64,000 nucleotides of DNA from Variovorax sp. OAS795 (GTDB taxonomy: Bacteria > Pseudomonadota > Gammaproteobacteria > Burkholderiales > Burkholderiaceae_C). This document shows, in pieces, positions 1,595 through 37,857 of the stretch. The translations under genes and the position numbers were made by a program. The stretch is from assembly GCF_040546685.1 (NCBI RefSeq), contig NZ_JBEPOH010000001.1, forward strand, positions 2,852,001 through 2,916,000, in the 5' to 3' direction. The notes under the pieces are model-generated. The model was not told the origin of the DNA, did no database searches, and worked only from the letters and a program-made list of their open reading frames with translations. Each line of letters begins with the position of its first letter. The stretch's first letter is position 1.

Positions 1595-1870
1595 CTAATC
1601 AGCGCGATGTGATCCAAGCTGAGATAGTTCTTTTCGTGCAGCTTCTTGACGGGCGTCGAGATACTCTGCGAGATCTTGGATGCCGACGCCTTTGAGAGAT
1701 TTCTGGCTGCTTGGATCTGTCCGAACCAACGGTAAACGGATTTCGCCCGTTATGCACTTCGCGGCAAGTTTTTTTAAGTCAAGATGGGAAAAGAAGTCGC
1801 GGCGAATCCATTCAAGTGGAATGATGGGCTGCGCGTCGTACTGAGCCATGAGAAGAAATATGGTCTTCAT
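1595..1870 (-). CDS. Pyocin activator PrtN-family protein
   Basis: A 91-residue protein beginning MKTIFLLMAQY, with an IPLEWI-x-RDFF core and a C-terminal half reading KGVGIQDLAEYLD, the signature of the PrtN (pyocin activator) family. In Pseudomonas PrtN switches on pyocin genes; homologues in prophages sit at the end of the early operon near int and may act as excisionase or activator. The open frame extends upstream to 1978 but family length and the start context favour ATG at 1870. The start lies four bases after the stop of the overprinted frame (1875-2645), pointing to coupled translation. It is the last gene of the leftward operon. Function inferred from family. Confidence 0.82.
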   Translation of the reverse strand: MKTIFLLMAQYDAQPIIPLEWIRRDFFSHLDLKKLAAKCITGEIRLPLVRTDPSSQKSLKGVGIQDLAEYLDARQEAARKELSQLGSHRAD

Positions 1871-1874
1871 TCTT

Positions 1875-2645
1875 TCATCTCTCTTGCCTTGATGCCTGCT
1901 CATTAAAAGCTGAGCGAGAGCATGGACCATGCTGCTGCCGCCACTCGTGGAACTTGTCCGTTGCCAAGGGCGCGACATCTGTCCACCCGATGGGCCAGCC
2001 CATGACCCACTCGACGAATTCGGGGTTCAGCCGGCCAGCCTTGCCATCCCGCTCGACCCAATAGTCGAGTCGGTTCCGAAGCCTGGACTTGCCATTCACG
2101 CGAGTCAGCGCGTTCTCCGACGAGCCCTTCGACATAGCCACTGAAGGCGTCGGTAATGTTTCGCCCCACCACCCAGGCGCGATCCCGCTCGTGGGGTGCT
2201 CCGAGGTTTCCAGCTGATAGACAACCCCATCGAGCATCGAACCCCATTGCGGCAAGGTCACCGAGGACCACTGCAAGGCCTCGTCCCACAAGCAGCGGTG
2301 AGTTCTCCACTCGGACGAACTGCGGTCGAACCTCACCGATGATTCGGCCCATTTGCTTCCATAGGCCGGAGCGCTCTCCTTCGATGCCTTCGCCGCTTCC
2401 GGAAGCGCTGATGTCTTGGCACGGAAAGCCGCCTGAAATGACGTCAACAATGCCTCGCCAAGCTCGACCGTCAAAAGTGCATACGTCAGACCAAATCGGG
2501 AAAACCGGGAGGGTTCCATCGTTCTGTCTTTGCGCCAGAACGGCTGCGGCGTAGGCATCACGTTCAACTGCGCAAACGGTCCGGTCGCCGCACAGTTCGT
2601 TGGCGAGAATTCCTCCACCAGCGCCTGCGAAAAGAGCCAGCTCAT
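1875..2645 (-). CDS. Overprinted frame inside the methyltransferase gene (256 aa, candidate protein)
   Basis: This ORF runs on the same strand as the cytosine methyltransferase gene, one base out of frame, across almost its whole length. Its ATG overlaps the stop of the dNMP kinase gene as ATGA, with GGAGG nine bases upstream, and its TGA ends four bases before prtN; both junctions look like those of a real operon gene. The protein (MSWLFSQALVEE start; PQWGSMLDG near residue 140; NPEFVEWVMGWPIGWTD near 215) resembles, from memory, unnamed phage proteins that start MSWL(Y/F)S-ALVE. No enzymatic motif is recognised. It could be only a frame shadow of a conserved gene, but the length, the family-like motifs and the snug junctions argue for translation. 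Confidence 0.5.
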   Translation of the reverse strand: MSWLFSQALVEEFSPTNCAATGPFAQLNVMPTPQPFWRKDRTMEPSRFSRFGLTYALLTVELGEALLTSFQAAFRAKTSALPEAAKASKESAPAYGSKWAESSVRFDRSSSEWRTHRCLWDEALQWSSVTLPQWGSMLDGVVYQLETSEHPTSGIAPGWWGETLPTPSVAMSKGSSENALTRVNGKSRLRNRLDYWVERDGKAGRLNPEFVEWVMGWPIGWTDVAPLATDKFHEWRQQHGPCSRSAFNEQASRQER

Positions 2646-2649
2646 TCAA
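1903..2649 (-). CDS. Phage C5-cytosine DNA methyltransferase (Dcm type)
   Basis: It transfers a methyl group from S-adenosylmethionine to C5 of cytosine, probably protecting phage DNA from host restriction; no nuclease is beside it. Motif I is LALFAGAGGG near the N-terminus, motif IV GGFPCQ carries the catalytic Cys (about residue 77), motif VI is VENS, and motif X is ALGNGQVP near the C-terminus. At 248 residues it is the short phage form with a minimal target-recognition region. I chose TTG at 2649, giving the usual start NELALFAGAGGG, five bases behind GGAGG; ATG at 2661 is in frame but contains that ribosome-binding sequence itself. It overlaps the upstream kinase gene and is overprinted by another frame. 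Confidence 0.9.
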   Translation of the reverse strand: MNELALFAGAGGGILANELCGDRTVCAVERDAYAAAVLAQRQNDGTLPVFPIWSDVCTFDGRAWRGIVDVISGGFPCQDISASGSGEGIEGERSGLWKQMGRIIGEVRPQFVRVENSPLLVGRGLAVVLGDLAAMGFDARWGCLSAGNLGAPHERDRAWVVGRNITDAFSGYVEGLVGERADSREWQVQASEPTRLLGRAGWQGWPAEPRIRRVGHGLAHRVDRCRALGNGQVPRVAAAAWSMLSLSF

Positions 2650-3397
2650 TCCCCCCTCCATCGCGCGTAGCTGCCTTTAAACCGAACATCATGTGTTTCC
2701 GGTCAAGGCCGAGTTCGCGGGCAATGAATTGCGAAAGCACTTCGACTTGCAGCTGGCGCACGTCACCTGCGTTCGTGACGACGACCTCAGGATTGAAGCG
2801 GCTTCCGTCAGTGGCGCTGATGTGCTGGCCCTCTGCGGAGCCGGTGTGTCCTGGGCGGGTGACTTGCCAAAGCACGGCGCCCGCCATGCGCAGCGTGTGT
2901 GCCTCGTTGTCGAAGCGCACATCGGTGATAGCAAAGCGCGTTTCGCCTTCCCGGCGGTAGTAGGTGAGCCGCTTCATGAGCTGTTCGGTCCAGTAGCGCG
3001 GCGACTGCGATCGACGGTACTCTGTGCCCCACCATTGCATGATCTGCCGAGGGCTGCGCGGCTCGTCGAGCCATGCATCGCTGAGCGGCGTGCGATGGTC
3101 GGGTGCGGCTGCGGACAGCGACAGGACCACGGCCGCGAGAAAGTCGCGTGGCGCAAGCCGCATGCGGAGCGCGACGGTCGGAACGTTCTTCAGGTTCGGG
3201 TTGGTGAGGTCGTCGAGCGAGAGCTCGAAGGCGTGAGAGATTTCGCCGCGCAGCGCGTCGGCGTAGGCGAGCTTGCGAAAGCGGGCGTGCGCGACGAGAA
3301 GGTCGGCAACGGTGTCTTTGCCGACACCGGCATGGCCGGTGAGTGCGATGAGATGGTGAAGGGCGGGGCGCTTCACCGTGGGCGTGATAAGGGTCAT
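2642..3397 (-). CDS. Deoxynucleoside monophosphate kinase
   Basis: A 251-residue P-loop kinase predicted to phosphorylate dNMPs and so supply precursors for phage replication. The Walker A GHAGVGKD is at residues 21-28 after the hydrophobic strand LIALT, and a QWWGTEYRR segment and an ITDVRFDNEA motif follow, as in phage dNMP kinases. The open frame reaches 3550, but the extra N-terminal residues are Pro/His/Arg-rich read-through of the gene upstream; ATG at 3397 leaves 22 bases after that gene's stop. The 3' end overlaps the methyltransferase start and the ATG of the overprinted frame. It is one of nine or ten genes in the leftward early operon. Confidence 0.85.
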   Translation of the reverse strand: MTLITPTVKRPALHHLIALTGHAGVGKDTVADLLVAHARFRKLAYADALRGEISHAFELSLDDLTNPNLKNVPTVALRMRLAPRDFLAAVVLSLSAAAPDHRTPLSDAWLDEPRSPRQIMQWWGTEYRRSQSPRYWTEQLMKRLTYYRREGETRFAITDVRFDNEAHTLRMAGAVLWQVTRPGHTGSAEGQHISATDGSRFNPEVVVTNAGDVRQLQVEVLSQFIARELGLDRKHMMFGLKAATRDGGGIE

Positions 3398-3419
3398 GGT
3401 TGCGGTCGTGGGGGCATGG

Positions 3420-3761
3420 CTAGGCGGTTTGTGCGACCGCGGAGGCGCGTGCGGGCAGCAGCTCGCACGATGTGATGACGGCATGCGTTTCTGGCGATAT
3501 GGCGCCGGGCATCGCGCGGGGGTTGGTGAGCACCAGGCGCAGGGCGTCACCGGCCTTTAGGTCGTTGTGCTTCGCGCGCCACGCTGCGGCGGTCGGGCCA
3601 ACCCAGCGGGCCACGTAGACCTCGACCGCGCGAGGCCCTTGGTTGTCGATGAGGCGCATCTTCAGAACGAACTCGCCGGCATCGGACTTGTGTTCACTGA
3701 CCGCCGGGCGTCCAGGGCGGTCCTTGCCGACGAAGAAAATGCCGGTTGTCGTGGTCGTCAT
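3420..3761 (-). CDS. Small phage early protein, unknown function (113 aa)
   Basis: I do not recognise the family. The protein has a Thr run at the N-terminus (MTTTTTGIFFVG), then alternating hydrophobic and charged residues consistent with a beta-rich fold (RAVEVYVARWVG, DALRLVLTNPRA), and no predicted membrane segment. A GAGGTG ribosome-binding sequence sits ahead of ATG 3761, which overlaps the stop of the preceding small gene as ATGA. An upstream extension to 3941 is rejected because it is His/Arg/Pro-rich out-of-frame sequence. It belongs to the early operon governed by the repressor. Confidence 0.65.
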   Translation of the reverse strand: MTTTTTGIFFVGKDRPGRPAVSEHKSDAGEFVLKMRLIDNQGPRAVEVYVARWVGPTAAAWRAKHNDLKAGDALRLVLTNPRAMPGAISPETHAVITSCELLPARASAVAQTA

Positions 3762-32779: not shown

Positions 32780-33931
32780 TTAGGGTGTAGTTTGCAAAAG
32801 GTCTGTAATTCTTGACCAATTGAAGATGAACCCGCGATTTGGATGAAAGACGTACCGCCCCTTTGGCTGGACAAGCTCCAATTGCTTCCACAGTTGCTTT
32901 TCCGCTTTCAAAAAACCGCGCTCTTCACCGCGAGTTGCAGCCGCAGCCCGTGCAATGTTTCGCTTCAGTAGTCCCTTCGATTCTAAAAACAATTCAAGGT
33001 TGTCAAGCCACAGCCCTTGATCGGGAAAAGACCCTCTAATTGAGTCTTGGTAGTCGCTGATCGCGTTGAAGAGGATTAAGTGCTTACCTGCGGTCAATGT
33101 CGCGATTGCAATGGCATCCAAAAACGGCCTAGACCAAGCTCCGTAGAGCGTCCCGACGTGATGAGCATCTAAGCCTTCCTTGGTCAGCGCTCCATCCGCC
33201 TCTGTCCAACCAATATGAAAAAGAAAGTTGCGATAGTTCTTTTTCACGCCTTCCTTTGTCGACGGTGCGGCATTGCGCGGAGTTCTTGCCCAGTTTTGCA
33301 CTCGCCCCGCTTGGATGTCTTCCCACAACTTGTCGAAGGCCCGGTCACGGATGTTCCGAGTCGAAGCAACAATCGGCCGCATCTCGCTATAGCAGTACGT
33401 CAGCAACAAAAAAATTTCCTGCGGGCTCATCTCCCGCCACTTCGCATAAAAGCTGTTATCGAGAGATGCAAGTTGAGTAGGTTGAGTCGCACGGGCCGAA
33501 AAGAAATGTGCTTCGCGAAATCGAGGTGCCAGCGGGGTGAATAGAGCGGGATCGTACGTCAGCACGCCGACAGGCGCGGTGTTAAAGGCAGCCTGCCGCA
33601 TAACGTCGACCACATGATCAGCGATGCGATAGCCATCGTCGGCTATCTCGGGGATAACCAAGAGCGAGTAGTGAAAATCTCTCGAATACGCAACCGCTTG
33701 TCCCAGTCCAGTGAGGTACTCGCGCTTGGTCTGCTTGGGAGGTTTGAATTCCGCCGCTACGTTGAGATTATTTATGCTGTCGACCAACACGAAATCAGGG
33801 ACTGGCCAAGTCCGTGAGGCCGTAATATATGCGTTGGACGAAAAGAGCGTATTCCAGGGCGCGCTTCCAGCCCTCAGACGTGCCACTGCCTCCGTTGCTA
33901 TTGCATATGCGAGCACATCATGAGTGCTCAC
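32780..33931 (-). CDS. Putative type II restriction endonuclease, PD-(D/E)xK
   Basis: A 383-residue protein with a textbook PD-(D/E)xK core: Pro45-Asp46 in WPVPDFVLV, then Glu61-x-Lys63 in AAEFKPPK after 14 residues, followed by a helix with GLGQAVAYSRDF. The remainder is not recognised and probably holds the DNA-recognition part. Its ATG overlaps the stop of the methyltransferase gene as ATGA, so it is translated after the protective enzyme. GC content is well below the neighbouring phage genes. It should cleave DNA lacking the cytosine methylation made by its partner. Confidence 0.82.
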   Translation of the reverse strand: MSTHDVLAYAIATEAVARLRAGSAPWNTLFSSNAYITASRTWPVPDFVLVDSINNLNVAAEFKPPKQTKREYLTGLGQAVAYSRDFHYSLLVIPEIADDGYRIADHVVDVMRQAAFNTAPVGVLTYDPALFTPLAPRFREAHFFSARATQPTQLASLDNSFYAKWREMSPQEIFLLLTYCYSEMRPIVASTRNIRDRAFDKLWEDIQAGRVQNWARTPRNAAPSTKEGVKKNYRNFLFHIGWTEADGALTKEGLDAHHVGTLYGAWSRPFLDAIAIATLTAGKHLILFNAISDYQDSIRGSFPDQGLWLDNLELFLESKGLLKRNIARAAAATRGEERGFLKAEKQLWKQLELVQPKGRYVFHPNRGFIFNWSRITDLLQTTP

Positions 33932-36129
33932 GGGGAAGCCGCCAAGTCGTAGACGTCACGCTTGTAGCCTCGCGATGAATAATTTCCCTTAATGGTCTTC
34001 ACGATGTTGCAGGCGAATATTTCGGCAAGCACTGGCGGGACAGCATTGCCAACCAAAGTGCATTGTTGCTGCCGAGTGCCAATAAATCTCATCCAATCGG
34101 GAAAAGTTTGGATGCGGGCCGCTTCTCGCACGGTCAGCGTTCGATGCAAAACTGGATGAACTGGGAAGGCGTTGTGACCTGGGACCATGGTCGTCGCGGG
34201 CGAACCCATTGATAGACGCTTGTAAACATGGCTGTAGTTCTTCACGTTGTCCGAACGGTATCCCTTTCTTAGGTGCTCTGGTAAGCCATTTTCTGGGAGC
34301 CGCCCGCCCTCAGGGATCAGCTTATATCTCGCGACCACCAGCTCTTTATGAGCCATTGGAGCATGACTAAACTCGTCCCCACACGTGGCAGGATCCATCA
34401 GGTCTGAGATTACATCTCCGACCGTGACATAAGGTCGCTGCCAAGACTTGGGATCACTGAAATACTTTGGTTCTGGCCACTGGAACATGAGTCCCTTTTT
34501 CCAAGCGACGAGGATGAATCGCTCTCGTTGCTGGGGTACCCCGTAATCAGCGCAATTCACGACCTTGTGGGCAACCTCATAACCGGCTCGCTTAAGCTTC
34601 TTTTCGACCTCAGCCAAGTAGGTCGAGTTGCCACGCTGAGTTGAAACAAATCCTTTTACGTTCTCCAGAAAAATCGCCTTTGGCGAGAGGCCGATAGCAA
34701 GCTCTATATATTTGATCGAGAGGTCATTTCGCTCGTCGTCTTCTGGCTTGTGATCTTGGGTGTTGATGAATCGGCGACGGCCAAAGATCGAAAAACCTTG
34801 GCAAGGCGGCCCGCCGAAGACAATATCGATCTGCTTGTTTTTCGTGTTCTTTCTGATTTCTTCCACCGTCAGTAAAGCCGCATCCGATACGAAGTGCGGG
34901 ACATCGGGGAAATTCAATTTCTGATTCCTGTCGACGCTATTCTTTTTGTCGTAAGAGGCGAGCACATTGCAACCCGCATTTAGGAATCCCAACATTAGGC
35001 CGCCGACACCCGAGAAAAAACTGACCGCCGTTGGCCCCGTTCTCCTTGCAGGTTTCGCTTCTGCTTCCTTGAAAGCGGCGAGCGCGATTTCCTCGCCAGA
35101 CAGCTTTGTCGTCGGCTTCTGTTCACTCACAGTAATTTTCCCTTGAATATGGCGTTTGATCTGCTCTCCGAGCTGCTTCGCAAGAAGAACAGGAACCGCA
35201 TTGCCGACCAGTTGACATTGCTCTGCGCGCGATCCTGAAAAAACGTAGGAATCAGGAAAGGTCTGTATTCGTGCAGCCTCCCTCGGAGACAAGCTACGGT
35301 TTTCCACCGGGTGAATCGGAAAAGCATTGTTTCCCGGGACCATTGTGAGTGCTGGTCGTTCGCGATGAAGACGCTTGTAAGTATTGCCAAAATTCTTTCT
35401 TCGAATTGCCTCCGGAAGCTCTGAAGGTGGCGGCATACGCCCACCCTCGGGAATGAGTTGGTAACGTGACACGACAATTTCGCCATGGCGAAGGAAGGAA
35501 TGGTTCGCTATGTCGTCGCGCGGACCTGAGAGGTCGGAAAGCACCGACCAAACCGGCACGTGAGGATTGGTTTCAGTGCCATGAGTCACTTTGGGCCACG
35601 CGAATCCCGTCTTCAACCGAGTTCCAAAAAAGAATACTCTCTTCCGGATTTGAGGTACTCCGAAATCGGCAGAATTAAGAGTTGTGACCCACATGCGATA
35701 GCCCAGCCGTTCGAAGGCGGCGATGATCTCTCGTTCAAAGCGACCGCCATATTGCGTCCGAAGATAATTGACATTCTCCATCAGCACGCACGAAGGCTTT
35801 ATCCATTCCACAATACGGGCAAAGCACCAGAAAAGTCCGTTACGCGGATCGGCCGGATTTTGGTCGCCGATTGTCGAGAAGCCTTGGCATGGTGGTCCGC
35901 CAACGATTAGGTCGACTTTGCGGCCATCAATGATCTTCTCTAGGTAATCACGCGTAAGGCGGCGGACGTCTCCGGCAAAGAAAGGAACGTCTGGGAAATT
36001 GTGGCGAAAAGTCTCTTCCGCCGACGGCTTAACGTCGGTTGCAAACAGAGTCTCGAATCCTGCCGCGGTAGTACCCAAAGTCATTCCACCGCCACCAGCA
36101 AATAGCGAGATCGAGGTCAGTTTTTTCAT
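33928..36129 (-). CDS. Two complete C5-cytosine methyltransferases fused in one protein (733 aa)
   Basis: Both halves carry a full motif set. First: motif I SISLFAGGGGMTLG, motif IV GGPPCQGFS (Cys81), motif VI LMENV, motif VIII PQIRKRVFF, motif X QLVGNAVPVLLA. Second: SFFSGVGGLMLGF, GGPPCQGFS (Cys about 443), FLENVKGF, PQQRERFIL, TLVGNAVPPVLA. The target-recognition regions are alike (RYQLIPEGGRMP and RYKLIPEGGRLP; TMVPGNNAFP and TMVPGHNAFP), so the protein probably arose by tandem duplication and fusion. A fused pair suits an asymmetric site in which each half methylates one strand. The nuclease gene overlaps its end. Confidence 0.93.
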   Translation of the reverse strand: MKKLTSISLFAGGGGMTLGTTAAGFETLFATDVKPSAEETFRHNFPDVPFFAGDVRRLTRDYLEKIIDGRKVDLIVGGPPCQGFSTIGDQNPADPRNGLFWCFARIVEWIKPSCVLMENVNYLRTQYGGRFEREIIAAFERLGYRMWVTTLNSADFGVPQIRKRVFFFGTRLKTGFAWPKVTHGTETNPHVPVWSVLSDLSGPRDDIANHSFLRHGEIVVSRYQLIPEGGRMPPPSELPEAIRRKNFGNTYKRLHRERPALTMVPGNNAFPIHPVENRSLSPREAARIQTFPDSYVFSGSRAEQCQLVGNAVPVLLAKQLGEQIKRHIQGKITVSEQKPTTKLSGEEIALAAFKEAEAKPARRTGPTAVSFFSGVGGLMLGFLNAGCNVLASYDKKNSVDRNQKLNFPDVPHFVSDAALLTVEEIRKNTKNKQIDIVFGGPPCQGFSIFGRRRFINTQDHKPEDDERNDLSIKYIELAIGLSPKAIFLENVKGFVSTQRGNSTYLAEVEKKLKRAGYEVAHKVVNCADYGVPQQRERFILVAWKKGLMFQWPEPKYFSDPKSWQRPYVTVGDVISDLMDPATCGDEFSHAPMAHKELVVARYKLIPEGGRLPENGLPEHLRKGYRSDNVKNYSHVYKRLSMGSPATTMVPGHNAFPVHPVLHRTLTVREAARIQTFPDWMRFIGTRQQQCTLVGNAVPPVLAEIFACNIVKTIKGNYSSRGYKRDVYDLAASP

Positions 36130-36598: not shown

Positions 36599-37699
36599 TC
36601 AGATAGGTGCTGCTGCTGCAGCAGCTGGCTTGACGCCAAGTTTGTAGAGCCATGGCCACGCATGATATTTGTCGCCGCGCTCGCGGATGTGCGTGTACCG
36701 GCGAAGTGAGTTCCAAGTTCGATGACCTGATATGCCGGCCACGTTGGGAATGTTCCAGCCGAGCTCGAACAGGCGGCTGATGCCGTCGTGGCGAAGGTCA
36801 TGGAAATGTAGTTCCTCAATGCCAAGCAGGGCACAAGCGTCTGTAAACGCGCGACTGATCGAGTCGCCGTTGTGCGGGAAAATTCGACCAGTTTGGTCCA
36901 GAGACTTGCGGCGATTCACGATGAGCGCCAGCGCTTCCGGCGTGAGCCCGCACCGCACATCGTTGCCCACCTTCTCGCCAGGGTGCTTCATGTCTCTCAC
37001 CCAGATATCAGGGTGGCTCTCGTCTAAGTCCTCGAAGGTCTGCCTTGTGATCTCCTCCTGGCGCCGCGTGCTGAAAATCGCATAGCAAATGATCTCGCGC
37101 ATCGGGATGGCGTCCTTGCGCTTAACCCGGCCGAAGTGCTCCATGAGCTTGTCAAGTTCGGTCAGGGTGGGGCGTCGCTCGCGCTGGTTTGATCTTGAAG
37201 TCAGCCCGAGAGATTTACAGACTTTGCGCGCATCGTCGATCACCTGAGAGTCGAGCTGATATCCCCAGGCTGGCCGGGCGAGCTGATAGATCGCGGAGAT
37301 ATGGGAGAGGTAGTTGCCCGCGGTTTGAGGTTGGACGCCGAGATCTTTGGCGAACTGCACCCAGTCGGCGCTGGTGATCGTGGAGCCGCGCCGCTTGGCT
37401 AGGGGGGTTGCCGCCACAGAGTTGAGCACCTGGGCCTTCGTCTTGCCGATCGCCTTGCGAGATTCGGCGATGTACTTTCGGATCGCTTCGGCAAACGTGG
37501 GGTCGGGTGCCTTGAGCTTTTCCAGCGCCCCGGGCTTTGCCAGGTCGGTTTCCCGATTCTTGATCCAGAGCTTGGCTGCAGCCTCGCGGTCGAAGGTTTC
37601 CGTCTCGCTGTGCATGACAACGCCGCCATCCTTAATTCGGATGCGGGCCATGTGCGCTACGCTTCCGTCTGCGCGCTTGCGTTTCGTGATGGTGCCCAA
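36599..37699 (-). CDS. Tyrosine-recombinase integrase, dusA-targeting type
   Basis: A 366-residue phage integrase. The N-terminus GTITKRKRADGSVAHMARIR is typical of integrases that insert at dusA, which sets the start at TTG 37699; a longer frame to 37789 runs through attachment-site sequence. A SAM-like domain lies at about 100-180. Catalytic residues: Arg in STRRQEEITR, His-x-x-Arg in HDLRHDG, His in GHRTWNSL and the Tyr nucleophile in RRYTHI. It reads away from dusA into the prophage. The C-terminus is an Ala tract (KPAAAAAAPI). Confidence 0.92.
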   Translation of the reverse strand: MGTITKRKRADGSVAHMARIRIKDGGVVMHSETETFDREAAAKLWIKNRETDLAKPGALEKLKAPDPTFAEAIRKYIAESRKAIGKTKAQVLNSVAATPLAKRRGSTITSADWVQFAKDLGVQPQTAGNYLSHISAIYQLARPAWGYQLDSQVIDDARKVCKSLGLTSRSNQRERRPTLTELDKLMEHFGRVKRKDAIPMREIICYAIFSTRRQEEITRQTFEDLDESHPDIWVRDMKHPGEKVGNDVRCGLTPEALALIVNRRKSLDQTGRIFPHNGDSISRAFTDACALLGIEELHFHDLRHDGISRLFELGWNIPNVAGISGHRTWNSLRRYTHIRERGDKYHAWPWLYKLGVKPAAAAAAPI

Positions 37700-37712
37700 G
37701 GGGTGCCTTTTC

Positions 37713-37751
37713 GGTGGTACATGCTTTTTTGTGGCACGGAATGTACCACCG
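37713..37751. repeat. 11-bp inverted repeat between int and dusA
   Basis: CGGTGGTACAT at 37712-37722 and its exact complement ATGTACCACCG at 37741-37751 flank an 18-base spacer. It begins about 13 bases upstream of the integrase TTG start. Likely integrase binding sites of the attachment region or an operator for int. Confidence 0.6.
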
Positions 37752-37857
37752 GGACCGAAAAAACGCGGCCCAATCAGACCAAATGACACCGAACGAGAAC
37801 CACGAAAGCACTAGGCTCCAAGCCGATTTCCCTCTGAACACCAGTGAGGCAAAGGCC

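Follow-up and report, generated by a model that had tools for sequence, protein, structure and literature searches.

A methyltransferase gene and a second reading frame on the same strand

What does a long open reading frame encode when it lies on the same strand as a methyltransferase gene and shares 743 bp with it (2645..1903)? This question is raised by the dcm locus, part of a prophage, in a 64,000-nucleotide stretch of the Variovorax sp. OAS795 genome (the window), for which the initial annotation had proposed two long overprinted genes, dcm and a second frame of 256 aa. Both reading frames are present as described, and the features of the locus, all on the minus strand, are as follows.

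1903..2649, minus: dcm (proposed alpha subunit), from the TTG at 2649; the ORF opens at an ATG at 2661; C5-methyltransferase motifs I-VIII and X
1875..2645, minus: second gene (proposed beta subunit), 256 aa, ATG start, +1 frame of dcm; variable region with LPTP, and predicted motif IX
2655..2659, minus: GGAGG, possible ribosome-binding site common to both starts, from the sequence and the start codons of homologues
1983..2030, minus: predicted motif IX region in the second frame, LNPEFVEWVMGWPIGW; hhalign to type-B IX-X, wobble in close pairs
1948..1971, minus: predicted motif X in the dcm frame, ALGNGQVP; hhalign to type-B IX-X, frame-0 wobble pattern
2416..2427, minus: FPCQ, catalytic motif IV of dcm; little excess conservation around it in the second frame
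2145..2156, minus: LPTP in the second frame; conserved above the overlapping dcm residues (168-172)
2642..3397, minus: deoxynucleotide monophosphate kinase (DNMK family), upstream; ATG at 3397, ORF opens at a GTG at 3550; PF21448 on 2642-3400
1595..1870, minus: prtN, pyocin activator, downstream; PF11112 on 1595-1897

The finer points of the layout that had been given at the outset also agree with the sequence. The second-gene ATG shares bases with the TGA (2644..2642) that ends the upstream DNMK-family kinase ORF, the prtN ATG (1870) follows the end of the second-gene stop by 4 nt, and the GGAGG stands 5 nt from the dcm TTG and 9 nt from the second-gene ATG, which is four bases past the dcm start and behind this single GGAGG. 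By Pfam, the direct neighbors of dcm in the window are DNMK and PrtN. Because the second ORF is in the +1 frame, every third codon position in dcm is also a second codon position in the other frame, and therefore nearly every synonymous change in dcm alters the other protein.

The second frame is kept open in homologous loci

We retrieved 80 viral loci with the dcm protein as query, blind to the second frame and with near-duplicates among them, and obtained expected numbers of stop codons by shuffling the synonymous codons of each sequence. The +1 frame of these loci contained 1 stop versus 364.8 expected, with none at all in 79 of the 80, and the +2 frame of the same loci contained 1186 versus 951 expected, i.e., it was not depleted. 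The GC content of the loci ranges from approximately 40 to 65%. Taken alone, the window sequence is weak evidence (0 stops versus 2.8 expected, p 0.022).

For counts restricted to motifs IV-VIII, we left out loci that lacked an HMM hit or a clear motif IV, as well as those with a stop or an N in the dcm match, and de-duplication dropped any locus that had over half of its 5-residue words in common with a locus already kept. Across the five sets that remained, the +1 frame was open in 139 of 139 loci (0 stops versus 299 expected). By set, no stop was present versus 27.0 expected for the dcm query together with the window (n = 17), 121.8 for the dcm query set (n = 41), 90.2 for the second-frame query (n = 55), 28.8 for the PHROG query (n = 13), and 31.6 for named phages (n = 13). 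The initial annotation had called such an overlap rare, a description that these counts contradict; it had also held that stops in the second frame of close dcm homologues would speak against a second gene, and a single one was found in the 80 loci. The Paenibacillus-type set, before de-duplication, had 1 stop versus 173.9 in 66 loci. Over the same motifs, Streptomyces-type loci had 15 stops versus 33.2, with none in 9 of 14. Loci found with the Philonius query showed no clear depletion (23 versus 30.5, n = 11), and canonical methyltransferases showed none (128 versus 136.7, n = 26); both sets served as controls.

The picture is different over motifs I-IV. Here the +1 frame is depleted of stops in the window's family (1 versus 17.2), and bacterial-genome loci had 15 versus 63.1, whereas the Paenibacillus type is not depleted (144 versus 114.3). 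From this contrast we conclude that the core of the second gene begins near motif IV, and that the window's clade extends the gene up to the dcm start. When the whole dcm stretch was considered, ends included, the homologue alignment contained 192 +1 stops versus 621 expected. There were 185 in window columns, 183 of them before column 6 or after column 246, one at column 211 and one at column 247; save for column 211, the stops sit outside the second gene or at its ends.

Predicted placement of motifs IX and X

The dcm product matches PF00145 (E 4.6e-26) with residues 9-167, and this match covers only positions 5-161 of the 324 in the profile; the whole profile, as would be expected of a complete one-chain C5-methyltransferase, is not covered. 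Against TIGR00675 the protein scores 70.4 bits, under the cut-off of 100.65. For the second protein we obtained no Pfam match up to E 1, and its profile matched no PDB chain. It does match PHROG family phrog_1008 ("DNA methyltransferase"; E 4e-25, best stretch residues 67-184). Further matches to this family have E-values of 6e-72 for both the Paenibacillus phage Bloom second frame and gp79 of mycobacteriophage Rebeuca, 4e-71 for the Philonius methyltransferase C-terminus, and 9e-33 for the gp35 region of Sebastisaurus.

We then ran hhalign, one profile pair at a time, with a reference group that we call type B: phage methyltransferases with motifs IX and X in one frame. The second-frame C-terminus of the window type aligned with type-B IX-X at 97.7% (E 2.3e-12), and the dcm C-terminus aligned with the same region over motif X (E 6.3e-9). 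Type B in turn aligned with canonical IX-X at 80.3% (P 1.4e-5), the canonical profile consisting of 9 sequences because such regions were obtained from 9 of 30 loci. Against these 9 canonical sequences directly, neither the second-frame C-terminus (0.6%) nor the dcm C-terminus (5.2%) gave a significant alignment, and the link from the second frame to canonical motif IX therefore runs through type B. This pattern indicates that the IX-X region found in a single frame in type B is divided here, with IX in the second frame and X in dcm.

We also scored loci with a motif IX HMM, which was built partly from the loci scored, though from none of the Paenibacillus-type set, and was used at a loose threshold. 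In the window's family, 75 of 80 dcm-query loci had motif IX in the +1 frame only and 5 had it in none; frames 0 and +2 gave no match. Results for the Paenibacillus-type dcm-query loci were similar (+1 only in 74 of 80, frame 0 in 3, none in 3), as were those for bacterial-genome loci (+1 only in 77 of 80, none in 2, +2 in 1) and second-frame-query loci (+1 only in 26 of 29, none in 2, and 1 without a dcm hit). Streptomyces-type loci had the motif in +1 in 22 of 25 and in frame 0 in 3. Philonius-query loci had it mostly in frame 0 (25 of 33), with 5 in +1, 2 in +2 and 1 with none. In no locus of any set scored did the HMM find motif IX in two frames. It found the motif in 0 of 30 canonical methyltransferases, i.e., it is blind to canonical motif IX. 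The Paenibacillus-type and Philonius families were chosen since a second-frame query had led to them; their loci were fetched with dcm-frame peptides, and the Philonius protein includes its own motif IX. From the profile comparisons and the HMM we conclude that the second protein carries the predicted motif IX region that is absent from the dcm frame.

Starts of the second gene and selection along the two frames

For measures of conservation we started from 214 loci and kept the 165 that were close to full length, had 45% identity or more, and contained neither an N nor an internal dcm stop; removal of those at least 80% identical left 113 non-redundant homologues. The start of the second gene is conserved among them, being ATG in 103, GTG in 3 and another codon in 7. 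Of 42 Paenibacillus-type loci, 34 have a second-frame ATG located 8-17 codons ahead of motif IV (10.0 expected). A Shine-Dalgarno match of 5 nt or longer accompanies this ATG in 18 of the 34, compared with a mean of 4.3 and a maximum of 9 in 200 shuffles.

Column conservation in the second frame is 1.68 versus 0.36 in shuffles (z 177). It is raised in the +2 frame as well (1.04 versus 0.20, z 93), so part of the signal reflects shared ancestry of wobble bases. Stronger evidence comes from second-frame residues that are conserved above the overlying dcm residues, at dcm positions 168-172, which correspond to LPTP/WPTP, and likewise at positions 211, 222, 223, 226 and 232; at position 220, conservation is 0.99 for a second-frame M versus 0.55 for the dcm D. 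In the window's clade, conservation extends to the N-terminal segment of the second protein (approximately 66 residues, over motifs I-III), which has no methyltransferase counterpart.

The frame under selection can also be read from codon positions, which we compared in 54 close pairs that share no member and have 70-97% identity in dcm. For dcm codon positions 1/2/3, the differences were 0.117/0.089/0.397 over motif IV, 0.129/0.068/0.175 over motifs V-VII, 0.543/0.334/0.344 over the linker, 0.239/0.073/0.105 over the second-frame motif IX, and 0.078/0.058/0.344 over motif X. The free base is thus the dcm third over IV and X, and the dcm first, which is the second-frame third, over the linker and IX. 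In the close pairs, mean identity over motif IX is 0.71 for the second frame and 0.57 for dcm; in the linker (VIII to X), where wobble is in the second frame, the values are 0.24 and 0.17. A pooled ratio of third to first-plus-second positions over I-VIII did not separate overlap sets (1.15 and 1.08) from Philonius (1.21); for canonical methyltransferases, with 6 pairs only, it is 1.74. Both frames are under purifying selection. A lack of such selection in the second frame, the other finding that the initial annotation would have counted against the gene, is contradicted by the wobble pattern and by the conservation over motif IX.

A proposed two-subunit methyltransferase

We consider it likely, from the distribution of motifs and of selection, that a single phage C5-cytosine methyltransferase is encoded here as two subunits, alpha by dcm and beta, with motif IX, by the second gene. 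Alpha would contribute motifs I-VIII, which serve SAM binding and catalysis, as well as motif X. Beta, translated in +1 from its own ATG, would contribute motif IX and, by the selection pattern, some or all of the variable (target-recognition) region. What dcm encodes between VIII and X would then be mostly a by-product of beta coding. Alpha and beta would assemble and methylate DNA only jointly, by analogy with what passages on M.EcoHK31I report (discussed below); beta would help to read the target, and the phage may use the methyltransferase against restriction. The arrangement could have arisen by a frame change between VIII and IX and a return before X, leaving motif IX in +1, after which the second reading frame would have been extended upstream, in the window's clade as far as the dcm start. 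The initial annotation had described the second protein as one of unknown role. That description holds only in part, since the protein carries the predicted motif IX region that dcm lacks and fits the split of M.EcoHK31I as given in the passages cited below.

Somewhat less firmly, we favor the broader reading that phage C5-methyltransferases include a large and ancient class in which two subunits are obligatory, with alpha in one frame and a IX/target-recognition beta in +1. Existing records would give this class as a single-frame Dcm or as "hypothetical protein", and it would extend to phages that infect proteobacteria, Bacillota, Bacteroidota, actinobacteria and cyanobacteria. Within the clade of the window, beta would have gained a new N-terminal part over the SAM-binding domain, making the overlap nearly complete. 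A change in the linker would shift target specificity in beta, and the alpha reading of the linker would be free to vary. One observation weighs against an obligate pair, which would not keep such loci: 4 of the 80 dcm-query loci (L041, L044, L059 and L070), all from viral metagenomes, have one TGA in dcm and an intact second frame. L041 and L044 look identical, leaving 3 distinct cases. For these TGA codons sequencing error, natural loss of alpha and recoding are all possible. The reverse case, a broken second frame with dcm intact, is seen in L107.

The overlap could also be explained if both proteins were made and the second were independent, for example a regulator or an anti-restriction factor with a borrowed IX-like stretch, while dcm worked alone. 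The conserved N-terminal part of approximately 66 residues without a methyltransferase counterpart, the 4 of 80 loci (3 distinct) that keep the second frame beside a broken dcm, the lack of a Pfam or PDB match to the second protein, and the lack of a direct match to canonical motif IX would all sit well with such a protein. We nevertheless think it unlikely: motif IX is missing from dcm at the very place where the second frame carries it, wobble moves to the second frame at IX and back at X, no locus has motif IX in two frames, and +1 stops show no clear depletion where IX is mostly in frame 0 (23 versus 30.5).

A +1 ribosomal frameshift out of dcm, yielding a dcm-beta fusion and no separate second protein, seems to us very unlikely. 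The Streptomyces-phage-like loci in which dcm ends after VIII and +1 holds IX and X (L209, L210) would serve this reading as well as the two-subunit one. The separate starts disfavor a fusion: the second frame is selected from its own start (ATG or GTG in 106 of 113), which in the window is four bases past that of dcm, and the Paenibacillus-type second-frame ATG has a Shine-Dalgarno signal at a place where a shift would lose the catalytic motifs; moreover, the window's second frame is without motif X. That the open frame is simply a by-product of GC-rich composition and dcm conservation has next to no probability. Such an effect could be suspected from a window of 65% GC whose own frame is only weakly unusual (p 0.022), but it is ruled out by the synonymous shuffles (1 stop versus 365 expected, in loci down to 40% GC), by the +2 frame and the canonical methyltransferases, neither of them depleted, and, over motif IX, by second-frame residues conserved above those of dcm.

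If the two-subunit proposal is right, a likely role can be given to a large protein family that has been without one. Relatives of the second protein do exist as separate database entries, as had been stated in the initial annotation, and the single query returned 2376 at E <= 1e-3. Among the matches listed (120 of the 2376), Pfam domains are absent throughout, and the names, with the exception of one "putative cytosine-specific methyltransferase", amount to "hypothetical protein" or similar. The proposal also predicts that matching Dcm proteins, expressed singly as they are annotated, would be inactive. It would be an unusually clear case of one enzyme divided between two reading frames of the same DNA.

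Comparison with known systems

The small gene of EcoHK31I is nested in the large gene in another frame. The window differs in that almost the whole of dcm is overlapped by the second gene. In the passages of PMC3404938 that describe M.EcoHK31I, the larger polypeptide has motifs I-VIII and X and the smaller only IX, and the title of a study cited there (Lee, Kam and Shaw 1995) states that the enzyme (YGGCCR) needs two proteins for methylation in vitro; a passage of PMC3439449 terms it naturally split. By motif layout alone the window is alike, with a larger polypeptide that has I-VIII and X without IX and a smaller one with IX. The same part of PMC3404938 predicts the target-recognition domain of M.EcoHK31I in the larger subunit, whereas the linker in the window is selected in the second frame. 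It also describes the small domain of M.HhaI and M.HaeIII as containing the variable region and motif IX and as making the specific DNA contacts. Judged by motif layout, the window would work like EcoHK31I, and the location of its target-recognition domain may differ. The setting differs too: EcoHK31I is counted among restriction-modification systems in a passage of PMC6456624, and the window genes lie between a nucleotide kinase gene and prtN. The split of one enzyme is already known from one bacterial enzyme, and what is added here is the wide range of phages in which such a split is predicted.

M.AquI (CYCGRG), as given in part of PMC3404938, resembles the Streptomyces-phage-like loci (L209, L210 and most of L252-L269), with I-VIII in dcm and IX and X in +1. 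The window is not AquI-like, because its motif X is in the dcm frame and its second frame ends without X. The methylase of phage ShiLan, according to a passage of PMC11855218, contains an out-of-frame HNH endonuclease, a mobile insertion in a third frame. The window likewise has a hidden second frame inside a phage methylase gene, but one that spans the gene and has no HNH match; HNH or another known domain in the second frame was rejected on the absence of any Pfam match up to E 1. Passages of PMC6070908 list both gp62 and gp63 of a P. larvae phage as DNA-cytosine methyltransferases and, in those passages, make no mention of an overlap. We found no literature report of this overlap in phages in a search of titles and abstract openings, outside of which most subscription journals fell.

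Other layouts and additional observations

Several layouts are extant. The Philonius methyltransferase holds FPEWMMGWPAGWV and motif X (IIGNGVCPQQ) in one frame; Philonius-like mycobacteriophage methyltransferases (L212 and 25 of the 33 loci L219-L251) are like the window in this motif IX type and in LPTP repeats, and they differ in having all motifs in one frame and +1 stops that are not clearly depleted. For phiBT1, Sebastisaurus and Rebeuca, IX and X are both in +1, and dcm ends once motif VIII has been encoded. Because these layouts exist beside that of the window, with IX alone in the second frame, the origin of the overlapping genes is traceable. In GenBank, phage Bloom has both frames labeled as DNA cytosine methyltransferase, and the other records that we examined, e.g., those of Salmonella phage S9-5 and Vibrio phage 1.003.O, annotate one frame only.

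Among the 246 genomes of the family to which one Citrobacter genome belongs, 19 have a hit to phrog_1008. This family also contains another dcm subfamily that is accompanied by such a second frame (L400, L401, L405, L406, L407 and L409). Its motif I is FFAGIGGW or similar, accompanied by PCQPFS, and its second frame ends, where this is visible, in QLNPA.S.WL(M/Q)G.P. The LPTP repeats of Philonius-query loci L219-L248 lie in frame 0, with some in +1, which gives the impression that repeat units were inserted in more than one frame. L029 has a C-terminal second-frame match without a dcm hit.

Additional features of the window deserve mention. The GC3 of dcm (1903-2661) is 0.55 in a window of 65% GC, a value that looks low and would fit constraint by the second frame. 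On the minus strand, 33928-36129 is a 733-aa ORF for an ordinary fused double C5-methyltransferase, in one frame and with two PF00145 matches; by eye, each half has motif IX in its own frame (LSPREAARIQTFPDSY), as expected of a one-frame enzyme. Beside it are a 383-aa ORF (32780-33931), which may be its restriction enzyme, and an ORF that is integrase-like by eye (36599-37789). At the edge of the window, on the plus strand, 17-1510 is a long ATPase-like ORF with the P-loop GSRGVGKS, also noted by eye.
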